This document shows positions 13,239 to 20,014 of a DNA stretch of 20,014 nt, in pieces (position 1 is the first letter of the stretch; every line of letters begins with the position of its first letter). Position numbers and translations under genes: made by a program. Source of the stretch: a virus; the IMG/VR virus record IMGVR_UViG_3300044616_000618, positions 1-20,014 of that record. One strand, written 5' to 3'. The notes under the pieces were generated by a model. The model saw only the letters and a program-made list of their open reading frames with translations, did not search any database and was not told the origin of the DNA.

Positions 13239-16200
13239 ATGAGATTTGATTTCCCAACACATAGAAGCGGTGATACGTGGCGTGGTATTAGTTCAATAAC
13301 TATATTAGATAATGAAGTTCCTATAGATTTGACTGGGTGTAAAATATATATACAATTTCGTTCTATTTATAATTTTGCCAGTCCTGTAGTTCTTACTCTT
13401 ACAACCGAAGACAATACCATAAAAATAGAAAATGCTGTTAATGGTATTATATCTATACCAGAACAAATAATAAATGTTCCTGTTGGGAGATATAGATACG
13501 ATTTACAGGTCGATTTTCCGGACGGTGCTTCCATAACATACATGGAAGGTGAGTTTGAAATAAAACCAGGTATTACGAGTCCAACATTTGATTCATCGAT
13601 AAATACTAGATACAACGCTTTACGTATAAATTCTTTATTATCTTTAATAAGTGCAAATTCAGCATTGTGGGCATATGATGGTTCAGATATTAAAAGTTTA
13701 ACTGCAAATTGGCAAGATGTTGCAACGTTAGTTCAAAAATCATCAAGTAGTTGGGCCGTTGATTCTCTTATCCGAGAATTATCAGGATATTGGCAAAGCA
13801 ATTATACTTATGTATCACAAAATAGTTCAATTTTTAGTATCGTTCAAAACGCATCAAGCAGTTGGGCAGTTGATAATTTCGTAAGATCTTTATCATCATC
13901 TTGGCAAAATTCTTACACCGTAACTTCAGAATCTTCTGCAAATTGGAATCTTGCTTACAGTAAACTTTATTTATTGGATTCTGTTTATAGTAATGTAAAT
14001 GAAACATCCAGCGATTGGAATTCCGTTTATACAACGGTTTTAGAATCTAGTAGTAATTGGAATTCTGCTTATAATTTAGTATCTTCTGTTTATACGTCAG
14101 TGTCTGAAATGAGTTCTAATTGGGACTCTGTATACACATCAGTAAAAGACACATCTGCCAATTGGGACTCTGTTTATACTTCTGTTTTAGAGACAAGTGC
14201 GAATTGGGATTCTGTTTATAGTTCGGTATTGGAAACTTCTGCGAACTGGGATTCGGTTTATACTTCCGTAAAAGACACATCTGCTAATTGGGACTCTGTA
14301 TACACATCAGTAGAAGACACATCTGCCAATTGGGACTCTGTTTATACTTCCGTTTTAGACACAAGTGCTAATTGGGACTCTGTTTATAGTTCGGTAAAAG
14401 ACACAAGTGCTAATTGGGATTCTGTTTACAGTAGTGTAACAAATACTTCTGCAAATTGGGATTCTGTTTACACATCAGTAACTGAAACATCTTCCAACTG
14501 GGACTCGGTTTATACTTCAGTAACTGAAACATCTTCCAATTGGGACTCGGTTTATACTTCTGTTTTAGACACAAGTGCTAACTGGGACTCGGTTTATACT
14601 TCTGTTTTAGACACAAGTGCCAATTGGAACTCGGTTTATACTTCTGTTTTAGAAACAAGTGCTAACTGGGACTCGGTTTATACGTCAGTAACTGAAACAT
14701 CTTCCAATTGGGATTCTGTATATAGTTCGGTAAAAGACACAAGTGCTAACTGGGACTCCGTTTATACTTCAGTTTTAGACACAAGTGCCAATTGGGACTC
14801 TGTATATAGTTCGGTAAAAGACACAAGTGCTAATTGGGACTCTGTTTACACATCAGTAAAAGACACAAGTGCTAATTGGGACTCTGTTTATACTTCTGTT
14901 TTAGACGCAAGTGCTAACTGGGACTCCGTTTATACTTCAGTTTTAGACACAAGTGCTAATTGGGACTCTGTTTACACATCAGTAAAAGACACAAGTGCTA
15001 ATTGGGACTCTGTTTATACTTCAGTTTTAGACACAAGTGCCAATTGGGACTCTGTTTATACTTCAGTTTTAGACACAAGTGCCAATTGGGACTCGGTTTA
15101 TACTTCAGTTTTAGACACAAGTGCCAATTGGGACTCGGTTTATACTTCAGTAAAAGACACAAGTGCTAATTGGGACTCTGTTTACACATCAGTAAAAGAC
15201 ACAAGTGCCAATTGGGACTCGGTTTATACAACGTACAACCAAAATAGTTCAACATATGCAACAATACAGTTTGTTGATAATAAATTTCTTCCATTAAGTG
15301 GAGGAACAGTTGATGGAAACTTGACTATAACTGGTGATTTTTCTATTTTAGGCGAACTTACTCAAATTAATACAGAGATAGTAACTACAAGTTCTATTGA
15401 AATAATAAACGAAGGTTCTTCTATTGCATTACGAGTAACACAAAACGGAAGTTCTGATGTTGCTAGTTTTAAAGACGATTCAAATGTTGCATTGATTATA
15501 AAAAACGGAGGAAATGTCGGAATAAATACAGAAAATCCGAACGTTCATTTAACAGTAAATGGTTCAATAAGTTCAAACGAAATAATATACGATAGTATAG
15601 GAAATTCAAATGAATGGAATCAAGCATATTCAAACGTTTCATCGAATTCTTCTGTTTTAGAGTCTGTATTTTCAACAGTATCTCAAAACTCGTCTGTTAA
15701 TTGGAGTAGAGACGCAGAATATGCTGAATTAAAATCTTTAAGTAGTACTTGGATATCAACACATACCACAGTATTACAAAATTCAGCATCTTGGTTAAGT
15801 GATTTTTCAATAACACAAGAATTTTTTGATGATTTTATAACATTAGGTGCTTCATCAACTTTACCAAACGCATTTTTAAAACCCGCAAATAAAGGTGGTG
15901 CAATTTTCGTAAACGCAGAAGATTCAAAGCAAGGTGTTTTAATATTAAGCACAAATCCTTTATTGAGTGCTAATCAAAGAAGTGGGGTAACGTCTAATTC
16001 AACAATAAATTTTGGTTGTGGAACCGAATATAGATTAATATTTTCTGCCAGAAGAGGCACAAATACTTTTGATAATATAAACGTATTAGGAAGAATAGAC
16101 ATGGGATTCCATAATCAAATTTATACTGATATGGATGAACCAAGTTATGGTTGCTTTTTTGTATCAGAAAATGGTGGAAATTGGAAAGCTGTAACTAAAA

Positions 16201-16484
16201 ACCAAATAAATTTACCTCTATTAACAGAAACATCCACAACTATTCCTTGTGATGAAACTTGGAGAACATTTGAAGTAAAAGTTGCTCAAGATTCTAGTAT
16301 TGTTGAATATTATATAGATAATATTTTAGTGGCAACACATACAACAAGCATACCTATTGGTAGTAATACACAATCTGCTATAGGTTACAGGTGTTTTAGA
16401 AAAACTATAGCGGCATTAAACGTGGAATTAAGAATAGATTGGCAATCTTTGATAATGAAAAGAAATAACCAACTTTGGAAATAA
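13239..16484 (+). CDS. Long repeat-built tail fibre/baseplate protein, 1081 aa
   Basis: Four regions can be seen. (1) Residues 1-115 resemble the N-terminal beta domain of phage upper baseplate proteins (BppU type): 'HRSGDTWRGIS', 'PIDLTGCKIYIQFRS', 'GRYRYDLQVDFPDG', 'GEFEIKPG'. It probably attaches to the baseplate or tail. (2) About 120-285 hold degenerate Ser/Trp repeats ('SSSWAVD', 'SSSWQNSY'). (3) Residues 286-663 are 27 uninterrupted 14-residue units with consensus TSVxDTSANWDSVY. (4) From 664, 'NSSTYATIQFVDNKFLPLSGG' opens a fibre module, followed after about 840 by a jelly-roll domain with 'WRTFEVKV', 'VEYYIDNILVATHTT' and 'IPIGSNTQSAIGYR', like concanavalin A-type sugar-binding domains. 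The 14-residue period equals two heptads (Val/Trp at a, Thr/Val at d), which fits a trimeric coiled-coil shaft. A receptor-binding role is inferred from this architecture. Confidence 0.85.
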   Translation: MRFDFPTHRSGDTWRGISSITILDNEVPIDLTGCKIYIQFRSIYNFASPVVLTLTTEDNTIKIENAVNGIISIPEQIINVPVGRYRYDLQVDFPDGASITYMEGEFEIKPGITSPTFDSSINTRYNALRINSLLSLISANSALWAYDGSDIKSLTANWQDVATLVQKSSSSWAVDSLIRELSGYWQSNYTYVSQNSSIFSIVQNASSSWAVDNFVRSLSSSWQNSYTVTSESSANWNLAYSKLYLLDSVYSNVNETSSDWNSVYTTVLESSSNWNSAYNLVSSVYTSVSEMSSNWDSVYTSVKDTSANWDSVYTSVLETSANWDSVYSSVLETSANWDSVYTSVKDTSANWDSVYTSVEDTSANWDSVYTSVLDTSANWDSVYSSVKDTSANWDSVYSSVTNTSANWDSVYTSVTETSSNWDSVYTSVTETSSNWDSVYTSVLDTSANWDSVYTSVLDTSANWNSVYTSVLETSANWDSVYTSVTETSSNWDSVYSSVKDTSANWDSVYTSVLDTSANWDSVYSSVKDTSANWDSVYTSVKDTSANWDSVYTSVLDASANWDSVYTSVLDTSANWDSVYTSVKDTSANWDSVYTSVLDTSANWDSVYTSVLDTSANWDSVYTSVLDTSANWDSVYTSVKDTSANWDSVYTSVKDTSANWDSVYTTYNQNSSTYATIQFVDNKFLPLSGGTVDGNLTITGDFSILGELTQINTEIVTTSSIEIINEGSSIALRVTQNGSSDVASFKDDSNVALIIKNGGNVGINTENPNVHLTVNGSISSNEIIYDSIGNSNEWNQAYSNVSSNSSVLESVFSTVSQNSSVNWSRDAEYAELKSLSSTWISTHTTVLQNSASWLSDFSITQEFFDDFITLGASSTLPNAFLKPANKGGAIFVNAEDSKQGVLILSTNPLLSANQRSGVTSNSTINFGCGTEYRLIFSARRGTNTFDNINVLGRIDMGFHNQIYTDMDEPSYGCFFVSENGGNWKAVTKNQINLPLLTETSTTIPCDETWRTFEVKVAQDSSIVEYYIDNILVATHTTSIPIGSNTQSAIGYRCFRKTIAALNVELRIDWQSLIMKRNNQLWK
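14094..15227 (+). repeat. 27 tandem copies of a 42-bp unit (14 residues) inside the first fibre gene
   Basis: Twenty-seven units of exactly 42 bp fill 1134 bp with no insertion or deletion. The encoded consensus is TSVxDTSANWDSVY; position 4 is mostly Lys, Leu or Thr. Units differ mainly by synonymous changes (for example TCT or TCG for Ser, TAC or TAT for Tyr) and by the Lys/Leu choice. Units in the 3' half are closest to each other at the DNA level, and units at the 5' edge and before it are degenerate. Confidence 0.95.
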
Positions 16485-16507: not shown

Positions 16508-18949
16508 ATGGCATCCGAATATCTTCTCAACCCACTAATATCAGCAATTCCTTTAAATTCCAACGTAGGGTTTAACAATTCATGGATATCTGTACAAAAT
16601 CCATTCAATATTCCTTTTTTTGCTCAACTAACATACGTAACTAATTTAGATGATATTGTATTAGAAGTTGATGATTTAGAAGAATTAGTTTATAGAAGTA
16701 ATACTTTATTAGATGTTTTAACTGCTTTTTCATCACAACAAGTAACTTTACTAGATAAATTAACTTCAATAGTACAAACAGAATTTGATGAAACGCAACT
16801 TCTTTTACAAACTGAATTTGATCAAACTCAAACACTTTTAGATACATTAACATCTATAACACAATCAGAATTTGATCAAACTCAAACACTTTTAGATACA
16901 TTAACATCTATAACTCAATCTGAATTTGATGATACACAGACGCTTTTAACTACCGAGTTTAATGAAACACAAACTCTTTTAGATTCATTAACATCTATAA
17001 CTCAGTCTGAATTTGATGATACACAGACGCTTTTAGATACATTAACATCTATAACTCAATCAGAATTTGATGATACACAGACGCTTTTAGATACATTAAC
17101 ATCTATAACTCAATCTGAATTCAATCAGACACAAACTCTTTTAGATACATTAACATCTATAACTCAGTCTGAATTTGATGAAACTCAAACAATACTTTGG
17201 AAATTAACATCTATAACTCAATCTGAATTTGATGATACACAGACGCTTTTAGATACATTAACATCTATAACTCAATCTGAATTCAATCAGACACAAACAC
17301 TTTTAGATACATTAACATCTATAACTCAATCAGAATTTGATCAAACTCAAACAATACTTTGGAAATTAACATCTATAACTCAATCAGAATTTGATGATAC
17401 ACAGACGCTTTTAGATACATTAACATCTATAACTCAATCTGAATTTGATCAAACTCAAACACTTTTAGATACATTAACATCTATAACTCAATCAGAATTT
17501 GATCAAACTCAAACACTTTTAGATACATTAACATCTATAACTCAATCTGAATTTGATGATACACAGACGCTTTTAACTACCGAGTTTAATGAAACACAAA
17601 CTCTTTTAGATTCATTAACCGCAATTCAAGTAGATAAACAAAACCAAATTATTAGTTTAGGACATTCTTTAACTAGTATATCTACAAAAATAGATCAAAA
17701 TACAGATCATCTTGAAAGTTTAATTAATGTAACAAACGATTATTTAAATATTATAATCGGGTGGGATTATTCGACTGCAACTAAACAAGACGAATTATAT
17801 GCTTTAACAGATTTGTTAAAAAATATTGTAATAGATAAACAAGATCAATTAATTGCTTTAAATCATTCTTTAACATCTATAATTCAGTCTGAATTTGATG
17901 ATACACAAACACTTTTAACTACCGAGTTTGATCAAACACAAACTCTTTTAGAGTCATTAACATCTATAACTCAGTCTGAATTTGATGAAACTCAAACTCT
18001 TTTAGATTCATTAACATCCATAATACAATTTGAATTTGATGGCACTCAGACACTTTTAAATACTGAGTTTAACGAAACACAAACTCTTTTAGATTCTTTA
18101 ACATCAATTCAAGTTGATAAACAAGATCAAGTAATTTCATTGTTACATAGTTTAACCGGAAAAGTTTTACAAGTAGATTTAAATACTGATTCTTTAGAAG
18201 TCAATACCGATGAAATTGAAGGTTTAATTGTAGAAAATAATGTTTTATTAAATGCTTTAACATCAATACAAGGAGATAAACAAGATCAATTAATTGCATT
18301 AAGCCATTCTCTTACATCATATGCTTTTGAAATAGAAAATAATACTGATGAATTAGAAGAACTTGTAGTTGAAAATAATGTTTTATTAAATGCTTTAACA
18401 TCAATACAAGGAGATAAACAAGATCAATTAATTGCATTAAGCCATTCTCTTACATCATATGCTTTTGAAATAGAAAATAATACTGATGAATTAGAAGAAC
18501 TTGTAGTTGAAAATAATGTTTTATTAAATGCTTTAACATCAATACAAGTTGATAAACAAGATCAATTAATTGCTCTTAGTCATAATATTACATCTATACA
18601 AGTTGATAAACAAGATCAAGTAATTTCATTGTTACATAGTTTAACCGGAAAAGTTTTACAAGTAGATTTAAATACTGATTCTTTAGAAGTCAATACCGAT
18701 GAATTAGAAGATTTAGTCAGAGAAAATAATACATTGTTAAATGTATTAACAGCATCAAATCAAAATATAGCAGGGTTTGAAATTCCACCATATGATGAAA
18801 TTGATATAGATTATTATTCGCCAACAAATAATATAGAAACGGTAGATTATTATAATGAAAACACTTTAGTTTTATCTTTATCATTTGCTTATTTGCCAAA
18901 TCCTCCAATTTGCGATGATGCATTATTAAAGAAAGTTAAAAAGTTATAA
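16508..18949 (+). CDS. Repeat-built fibre protein with long helical shaft, 813 aa
   Basis: The N-terminal 50 residues ('NSNVGFNNSWISVQNPFNIP') look like a folded attachment region. Residues about 60-375 are a helical shaft dominated by an 18-residue repeat with consensus LLDTLTSITQSEFDxTQT, 13 copies in one block, broken by two 11-residue inserts (LLTTEFNETQT) and by two ILWKL variants. About 375-745 holds related helical segments with 'VDKQDQLIALSHSLTS', two perfect 46-residue repeats (18263-18538) and a 35-residue block used twice. The last 60 residues form a beta-rich end, 'YDEIDIDYYSP...ETVDYYNENTLVLSLSFAY', like a common phage fibre C-terminal beta module. An 18-residue repeat equals five helical turns at 3.6 residues per turn. 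I read it as a fibre or fibre-like structural protein; its exact place in the tail is unknown. Confidence 0.8.
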   Translation: MASEYLLNPLISAIPLNSNVGFNNSWISVQNPFNIPFFAQLTYVTNLDDIVLEVDDLEELVYRSNTLLDVLTAFSSQQVTLLDKLTSIVQTEFDETQLLLQTEFDQTQTLLDTLTSITQSEFDQTQTLLDTLTSITQSEFDDTQTLLTTEFNETQTLLDSLTSITQSEFDDTQTLLDTLTSITQSEFDDTQTLLDTLTSITQSEFNQTQTLLDTLTSITQSEFDETQTILWKLTSITQSEFDDTQTLLDTLTSITQSEFNQTQTLLDTLTSITQSEFDQTQTILWKLTSITQSEFDDTQTLLDTLTSITQSEFDQTQTLLDTLTSITQSEFDQTQTLLDTLTSITQSEFDDTQTLLTTEFNETQTLLDSLTAIQVDKQNQIISLGHSLTSISTKIDQNTDHLESLINVTNDYLNIIIGWDYSTATKQDELYALTDLLKNIVIDKQDQLIALNHSLTSIIQSEFDDTQTLLTTEFDQTQTLLESLTSITQSEFDETQTLLDSLTSIIQFEFDGTQTLLNTEFNETQTLLDSLTSIQVDKQDQVISLLHSLTGKVLQVDLNTDSLEVNTDEIEGLIVENNVLLNALTSIQGDKQDQLIALSHSLTSYAFEIENNTDELEELVVENNVLLNALTSIQGDKQDQLIALSHSLTSYAFEIENNTDELEELVVENNVLLNALTSIQVDKQDQLIALSHNITSIQVDKQDQVISLLHSLTGKVLQVDLNTDSLEVNTDELEDLVRENNTLLNVLTASNQNIAGFEIPPYDEIDIDYYSPTNNIETVDYYNENTLVLSLSFAYLPNPPICDDALLKKVKKL
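16835..17602 (+). repeat. 54-bp (18-residue) tandem array in the second fibre gene
   Basis: Thirteen 54-bp units plus two 33-bp inserts account exactly for these 768 bp (13 x 54 + 2 x 33). The core is TTAGATACATTAACATCTAT followed by the codons for TQSEF. Units are near-identical at the DNA level, with alternating CAATCT/CAATCA/CAGTCT and GATCAA/GATGAT/AATCAG choices. Three more degenerate units follow at about 17870-18080. Confidence 0.9.
18110..18214 (+). repeat. 105-bp dispersed direct repeat, first copy
   Basis: By eye this 105-bp stretch is identical to 18599-18703, 489 bp downstream in the same gene and frame. It encodes the VDKQDQVISLLHSLTGKV segment and the residues after it. Confidence 0.85.
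18263..18538 (+). repeat. Two perfect tandem copies of a 138-bp (46-residue) unit
   Basis: Copy one is 18263-18400 and copy two is 18401-18538. I compared them base by base and found no difference. The 46-residue unit starts with SIQGDKQDQLIALSH and ends with VENNVLLNALT. A third, diverging copy starts at 18539. Confidence 0.95.
18599..18703 (+). repeat. 105-bp dispersed direct repeat, second copy
   Basis: This is identical by eye to 18110-18214. Together the two copies flank the 138-bp tandem pair, so recombination between them would delete or amplify about 489 bp without shifting the frame. Confidence 0.85.
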
Positions 18950-18953
18950 AAGC

Positions 18954-19316
18954 ATGTCTTTTACATTTAATCCATTCTCCGGAAATTTTGATAATACTCC
19001 ATCTTTAAAAAAAGCAAAATCCGTTTATACATCTGTAAGCGAAACAAGTGCTAACTGGAATTCTGTTTATACTACATATAACGAAAATAGTGCAACATAT
19101 GCAAAAATAGATTTCGTACAAAATAACTTTTTACCTTTAAGTGGTGGAGATTTATCAGGTCCGTTGGGAGTAACATCACAAATAAGTTTAACCGGAAGAC
19201 ATGTAATAAAAACAAATGGTCAATTGTTATCTTCTACGGATTTATCTTTATATGAAAACGAAAATGTTTTTTTAAAAATAATAGTAAACAACGAAAATAA
19301 ACTAATTAGAATATAG
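18954..19316 (+). CDS. Short fibre-module protein A, 120 aa
   Basis: The protein begins with MSFTFNPFSGNFDNTP and then carries the fibre repeat seen at the end of the 1081-aa gene's array: 'SVYTSVSETSANWNSVY', 'TTYNENSATYAKIDF' and 'NNFLPLSGG'. The last 45 residues are a different beta-rich tail. It is a small fibre or adaptor-like protein, paralogous to the next gene for roughly the first 80 residues. The ATG is 4 nt after the preceding stop and the TAG stop is 4 nt before the next ATG. It probably belongs to the tail fibre network, perhaps linking or decorating fibres, but no function is known. Confidence 0.75.
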   Translation: MSFTFNPFSGNFDNTPSLKKAKSVYTSVSETSANWNSVYTTYNENSATYAKIDFVQNNFLPLSGGDLSGPLGVTSQISLTGRHVIKTNGQLLSSTDLSLYENENVFLKIIVNNENKLIRI

Positions 19317-19320
19317 GAAT

Positions 19321-19761
19321 ATGCCATTTACATTTAATCCATTCTCCGGAAATTTTGATAATACTCCTTCTACAAAGGATGCAAAATCCGTCTATACTTC
19401 TGTAAATGAAACAAGTGCTAACTGGAATTCTGTTTATACTACATATAACGAAAATAGCGCAACTTATTCTACAATAAATTTCGTACAAAATAACTTTTTG
19501 CCTTTAAGTGGTGGAGATTTATCAGGTCCGTTGGGAGTAACATCACAAATAAGTTTAAGTGGATATAACAACATTATCATATTAACAGGAAGAGTTCTAT
19601 ATGAATCTGATTTGGTACAAGTAGTGAATGAAAATGAATTTTTAAAAGTTTATGTTAATGAAGAAAATAAAATTTTACGTTTATACAATTTAAATTTCCC
19701 ATGGGTAGATGGATTTGGAAATACTATTATAGACGAATTTGGAAATACTATAAAACTTTAA
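19321..19761 (+). CDS. Short fibre-module protein B, paralogue of A, 146 aa
   Basis: The first 80 residues are nearly the same as in protein A: MPFTFNPFSGNFDNTP, one SVYTSV-TSANWNSVY unit, TTYNENSATY and the 'NNFLPLSGGDLSGPLG' module. The C-terminal half differs, with 'GRVLYESDLVQVV', 'YVNEENKILRLYN' and a terminal 'GFGNTIIDEFGNTIKL' hairpin-like pair. The upstream TAGGA, which includes the stop of gene A, may serve as ribosome binding site. The DNA identity of the shared half indicates a tandem gene duplication followed by exchange or divergence of the C-terminal tip. Confidence 0.75.
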   Translation: MPFTFNPFSGNFDNTPSTKDAKSVYTSVNETSANWNSVYTTYNENSATYSTINFVQNNFLPLSGGDLSGPLGVTSQISLSGYNNIIILTGRVLYESDLVQVVNENEFLKVYVNEENKILRLYNLNFPWVDGFGNTIIDEFGNTIKL

Positions 19762-19802: not shown

Positions 19803-20014
19803 ATGGCGAATCTTACAATATCTCAATTAAACGAAACAACTATTTTAAACCCTGAAATAGATGTATTACCAGTTATACATGACGATCTTACAAAAAAAAT
19901 AACTGCTAGAAACTTATTAAAATATTCATATCAAGGAACAGATTTAAAACAATTGAGTTCCTACTGGGATTCGGTTTATACCTCAGTAAAAGACACATCT
20001 GCTAACTGGGATTC
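19803..20014 (+). CDS. Tail fibre protein, N-terminal part (runs off the window)
   Basis: The frame is open from the ATG at 19803 to the window end (about 70 residues). The start 'ANLTISQLNETTILNPEIDVLPVIHDD' followed by 'LTKKITARNLLKYS' matches a common opening of phage fibre proteins (I-S-x-L ... V-L-P-V-x ... T-x-K-I-T-x-x-x-L). It then enters the same 14-residue repeat as the 1081-aa protein: 'SSYWDSVYTSVKDTSANWDS'. The total length and C-terminus cannot be seen. This is the fourth gene in the window to carry the repeat. Confidence 0.8.
   Translation, partial: MANLTISQLNETTILNPEIDVLPVIHDDLTKKITARNLLKYSYQGTDLKQLSSYWDSVYTSVKDTSANWD

Follow-up and report, generated by a model that had tools for sequence, protein, structure and literature searches.

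The 20,014-base IMG/VR virus record analysed here over its whole length (the window) encodes, at 13239–16484 on the plus strand, a protein of 1,081 amino acids that we interpret, at a probability of about 0.72, as a phage fibre composed of a BppU-type anchor, a coiled-coil shaft that is α-helical and most likely trimeric, and a β-rich tip at the C-terminus, with a rod whose length changes by whole 42-bp units. The gene carries a 27-unit array, its orthologues (in L010, L012 and L009) vary by whole units and the differences among units follow a purifying pattern. We propose that the protein would act as a receptor-binding or side fibre in which each 14-residue unit would form two heptads (a=V3, d=T6, a'=W10, d'=V13) and contribute about 2.1 nm of rod (about 56 nm for 27 units), and in which recombination or slippage between repeats would add or remove whole 42-bp units. 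Since such steps preserve reading frame and heptad phase alike, rod length could change step by step with anchor and tip unaltered.

The N-terminal anchor-like domain (residues 1–116; 13239–13586, plus strand) matches Pfam BppU_N (PF10651) at E=9.7e-4 and 19.3 bits, under the curated cut-off of 23.1, and phrog_1084 (function unknown) at E=1.7e-17. It is 33–35% identical to small Flavobacterium phage proteins, matches that would hint at a Bacteroidetes host but do not prove it. A zone of decayed 14-residue repeats, predicted to be helical, follows (residues 127–285; 13617–14093, plus strand); strongly decayed units fill about 120 residues 5′ of residues 251–278, and the zone includes a GSDIKSLTANW motif whose general form, G-S/T-D-I/L-K-x-L-S/T-x-x-W, is common to many phages. 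Downstream of the array, a joint region (FVDNKFLPLSGG ... NVGINTENPNVHLTVNGSISS, followed by short decayed repeats; 15270–15767, plus strand) precedes the C-terminal domain (15768–16484, plus strand), a possible binding tip; the FLPLSGG joint is found also in the ORFs starting at 18954 and 19321 and in relatives. Matches of the C-terminal domain to Pfam PF22237 (SO2946-like_C) fall under the cut-off both in the window (E=3e-4) and in L034 (E=4e-5), and its identity to relatives is 73% and 55%; the full-length AlphaFold2 model described below has low confidence there. In the 55% case (L034:4585–6705), the domain is preceded by a different N-terminus and by about two dozen copies of another 14-residue unit, VNSNSATELAVTSW, which argues that anchor, shaft and tip are swapped as modules. 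Sequence searches of the PDB gave nothing significant; weak Pfam matches of the repeats to DUF948 and MCPsignal were judged composition-driven and rejected.

The closest known kind of protein is BppU, which consists of an N-terminal domain, a helical trimeric linker and a β-sandwich (PMC7291167), and the window protein is putatively an extremely elongated version of this type. As in BppU of the lactococcal phage TP901-1, a BppU_N-like domain, a predicted helical linker and a putative C-terminal β-type domain follow one another, and the protein would plausibly anchor a receptor-binding device. The linker of TP901-1 BppU is short and non-repetitive (residues about 123–194; PMC7291167), whereas here it exceeds 500 residues with 27 near-identical units; further differences are the sub-threshold domain match and that no Dit or Tal neighbours are seen in the window. 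Instead of a tail fibre, the protein might be a head (capsid) fibre or decorate the virion in another way, its shaft working alike, which we regard as unlikely though of some weight: homologues of the N-terminal domain stand alone (about 110 amino acids) among portal, head-tail adaptor and capsid genes in the Flavobacterium phages FCV-1.01 and 11b (L115 and L116), and in L117 and L118 the fibre cluster has no visible tail gene next to it, its neighbours there having no assigned function. The tail-fibre reading is favoured, however, by the role of BppU_N in TP901-1, 80alpha and T5 p132, where it anchors fibres or receptor-binding proteins to the tail (PMC7291167), and by a sub-threshold match to phrog_15373, annotated ‘L-shaped tail fiber protein assembly’.

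Adjoining the fibre gene is a second fibre-like gene of 813 amino acids (16508–18949, plus strand) with 18-residue (54-bp) repeats of its own, FDQTQTLLDTLTSITQSE (7+11 residues), and a separate 138-bp duplication; its orthologues in L010, L012 and L034 carry another 18-residue-type unit (SLTSIQVDKQDQLIALGH), and its weak Pfam matches to LON, WWE_5 and Endotoxin_C2 were likewise discarded as composition-driven. Three further plus-strand ORFs with the 14-residue unit lie in a row and constitute a cluster of modular fibre genes: two are small, each with about two units and the FLPLSGG joint (18954–19316 and 19321–19761), and the third is the start of another gene of the same kind, which the contig end cuts inside its repeat (19803–20014). 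Near the fibre cluster of a 96-kb relative lies an IS605 OrfB/TnpB-like transposase gene (L118:6353–7615, G005). Upstream in the window, a domain scan identified PhoH-like, AAA ATPase, IMPDH/GMP reductase-like, deaminase and HNH nuclease ORFs together with both ribonucleotide reductase subunits, of which the large-subunit gene is uninterrupted; its counterpart in L010 (1–3375) appears to be broken up by inteins, with C...HN junctions, and a homing-endonuclease-like ORF lies between the parts. The window yielded no tail or capsid gene, and its contig ends downstream of the fibre genes. Against isolated phages, megablast with the whole window found no near relative, and tblastn with the array, the gene at 16508–18949 and the ORF at 18954 found no match.

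The array itself (14094–15227, plus strand; consensus TSV[KL]DTSANWDSVY) measures 1,134 bp, exactly 27 × 42 bp or 27 × 14 amino acids, with zero indels and a single reading frame, and is predicted to form a continuous helix. N9-W10 and S12-V13-Y14 are kept in 27/27 units, in which S2, V3 and S7 are likewise invariant. Position 4 varies most (L in 12 units, K in 9, T in 4, S and E in 1 each), followed by position 5 (D/E/N), and pN/pS among units is 0.23, so that most unit differences are synonymous. The autocorrelation, which is 0.82 at 42 bp but about 0.24 for the remaining lags, and a TRF score of 1207 exclude a chance origin. Units of the 3′ half resemble one another more closely (0.853) than those of the 5′ half (0.758; permutation 31/5000). 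The first-pass annotation had described the main ones among these features (27 indel-free repeats, the residues kept in every unit, variation chiefly at position 4 and by synonymous codons, and a more uniform 3′ half), and our measurements bear them out; its degenerate edges apply to the 5′ side, where unit 1 is decayed, but not to unit 27, which is canonical, the 3′ decay beginning only at the following, 28th unit (TTYNQNSSTYATIQ; 15228–15269, plus strand). Two further units can still be recognised 5′ of the array (residues 251–278), parted from it by NLVSSVY (14073–14093, plus strand), an insertion of exactly seven residues, or one heptad, which gives a spacing of 21 instead of 14 and is the sole spacing irregularity adjoining the array. 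The longest exact repeat within the array is 78 bp, so assembling reads of about 150 bp should preserve the count of 27.

Comparison with the orthologues revealed copy-number differences in whole units. The window has 27 canonical units, L010 24, L012 14 and L009 at least 15 (its contig ends there), all in 14-residue steps with no frame slip, in agreement with the earlier proposal that units are gained and lost without disturbing phase. Flanks of the L010 and L012 arrays are 98.4% identical downstream and 89% upstream, against about 85% in the surrounding genes, which indicates that the 3′ part has recombined. The first unit of one array corresponds to the first of the other, and the last to the last (41/42 and 40/42 bases), and their interior units cannot be aligned one to one; units of L010 do not separate from those of L012, and the window units are closer to one another than to those of any orthologue (0/2000 permutations for each of the three). 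On this sequence evidence, array-specific homogenisation and non-matching interiors are the outcome of turnover by recombination or slippage, and, with the more uniform 3′ half, they fit the exchange inside the array that the annotation had suggested.

The pace of this turnover is a separate matter. If the array were a fast contingency locus, its copy number would vary within a phage population and tune fibre length during infection or coevolution. The long near-identical direct repeats and the 27/24/14 units of the relatives are compatible with this improbable reading, as is the experimental precedent of Enterococcus phage EfV12-phi1, in which in-frame tandem duplications of a 1.8-kb tail-fibre segment arose during coevolution (PMC6365445). 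Copy number, however, did not change in any of four separately assembled pairs of relatives at 99.6–100% identity (L042/L043 with 28+25 units, L069/L076, L072/L097 and L045/L058), and the pair with 24 and 14 units is already about 15% diverged in its surrounding genes. Unit identity in the window array also shows no drop with separation (r=-0.04), and a search there for a short-range duplication signature found no adjacent unit pair forming a duplicated block. The constancy of near-identical pairs beside the differences among orthologues shows stepwise length evolution over lineage time, and leaves the heritable tuning of fibre length put forward in the first-pass annotation unsupported as a fast trait. 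EfV12-phi1 is nevertheless the closest precedent for length change in phage fibres: in both cases in-frame tandem gain alters fibre length, near a carbohydrate-binding domain in EfV12-phi1, but the units here are 42 bp and their variation is seen only between natural lineages. BACON domains are folded β-domains of about 90 residues, unlike the 14-residue shaft unit described here. In crAss-like phages of Bacteroidetes, tail-associated tandem repeats of this domain evolve by duplication (PMC6949934).

Structure prediction gave contrasting results depending on alignment depth. With four sequences, AlphaFold2 modelled the full protein at an overall pLDDT of 43 and assigned one β-strand of 8–11 residues to each unit of the array, where pLDDT reached about 60–78 in the best model only, the other four of five lying near 30. 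AlphaFold2 is known to invent β-solenoids for near-perfect repeats (PMC11795689), and this full-length model was set aside as belonging to that class of artefact. Given this risk, we gathered relatives with the decayed motif and reran AlphaFold2 on residues 127–369 (the decayed zone plus six units) with a 60-row alignment of diverse relatives drawn from 73 stretches carrying this motif. The predicted monomer now formed one unbroken helix through the final 160 residues of the fragment, with pLDDT mostly 75–90 there and 81–90 across most of the array part, and all five models averaged 65–76. A Foldseek search of the predicted helix against viral models found no match.

The sequence of the units is in keeping with such a helix. 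Hydrophobicity power is 58 at a period of 3.5, against 25 at 2.0 and 2.33, and positions 3, 6, 10 and 13, the predicted core, hold V, T/N/L, W and V/T. Among the four orthologues the most variable positions are 1, 4, 5 and 8, corresponding to f, b, c and f (p=0.015 if random); family-wide they are 5c, 4b, 2g and 6d, an outer face less clean than in the orthologues. At position 6 (d), 651 distinct matches comprise 228 N, 205 L and 107 T, and Asn recurs at d in trimeric coiled coils (PMC12933892). An a/d heptad pattern is thus present, and the regular shaft in heptad phase that had been claimed at first gains support from the 60-row helix, the 3.5-residue periodicity and the core-compatible residues, with the caveat that the four-sequence model contradicts the helical prediction. 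We infer that the shaft is most likely a trimeric helical coiled coil.

A β-structured shaft, either solenoid or spiral, with one strand and a turn per 14 residues, would accord with the strands of the full-length model, with the strand-forming residues V, T, Y and W, with the secondary hydrophobicity peak at 2.0 and with the L034 unit VNSNSATELAVTSW, which lacks the same a/d pattern; it is nonetheless highly improbable, because the strands came from only four rows, with four of five models near pLDDT 30 and in a known artefact class (PMC11795689), gave way to a helix once the alignment had 60 rows, and are at odds with the hydrophobic residues at position 6 (L/I/A/V), which match a spacing of i,i+3, not of i,i+2. 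An elastic linker rich in Ser/Thr/Asn, disordered and of no fixed shape, its repeats being neutral products of replication slippage, is scarcely credible: the composition is indeed rich in S/T/N and many relatives have Gly at position 8, but the hydrophobic and aromatic positions are strongly constrained (pN/pS 0.23–0.42; W10 in 178/185 distinct family units) and the 60-row alignment predicts a confident helix.

The helical coiled-coil shaft invites comparison with the stalks of SadA/YadA-type trimeric autotransporters, which have a V-x-x-N/T-S/T core with hydrophobic a and polar d positions. The window protein shares this core and a long repetitive spacer leading from an anchor to the heads, but it is viral and places Trp at every second a position, and no Pfam match to an autotransporter β-barrel membrane anchor was found in its C-terminal domain.

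Across IMG/VR, the canonical unit occurs in 19 stretches and a related motif in 73, roughly 90 in all. This 14-residue family is widespread and unnamed, and neither Pfam nor PHROGs describes it as a repeat; repeat-pattern matches in GTDB genomes amounted to three single, chance-like hits and were rejected. Neighbouring canonical motifs are separated by exactly 14 residues in 299 spacings. In the broader family, spacings of 29, 43 and 57 (one extra residue) are common and GG insertions also occur, so that strict heptad phase holds only inside canonical arrays; in L030, L049, L015 and L047, spacings of 24/28 residues or W-x-GG insertions inside the repeat break it. We suggest, speculatively, that the family (NSANW-x-S/T-V/T-Y-T-x-V) may be a common length-setting brick of uncultivated-phage fibres, the number of bricks, in phase-neutral steps of 2.1 nm, perhaps being adjusted by selection to how thick the surface layer of the host is.

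For structure prediction, this protein shows why AlphaFold2 calls for caution with repeats: the outcome was β with 4 sequences and helix with 60. For the phages themselves, the analysis identifies a recurrent fibre-shaft module, with its core register, in about 90 stretches from uncultivated phages, together with natural length variants of 14, 24, 27 and 28+25 units, three of which share the same anchor and tip, so that the effect of fibre length on adsorption becomes testable.
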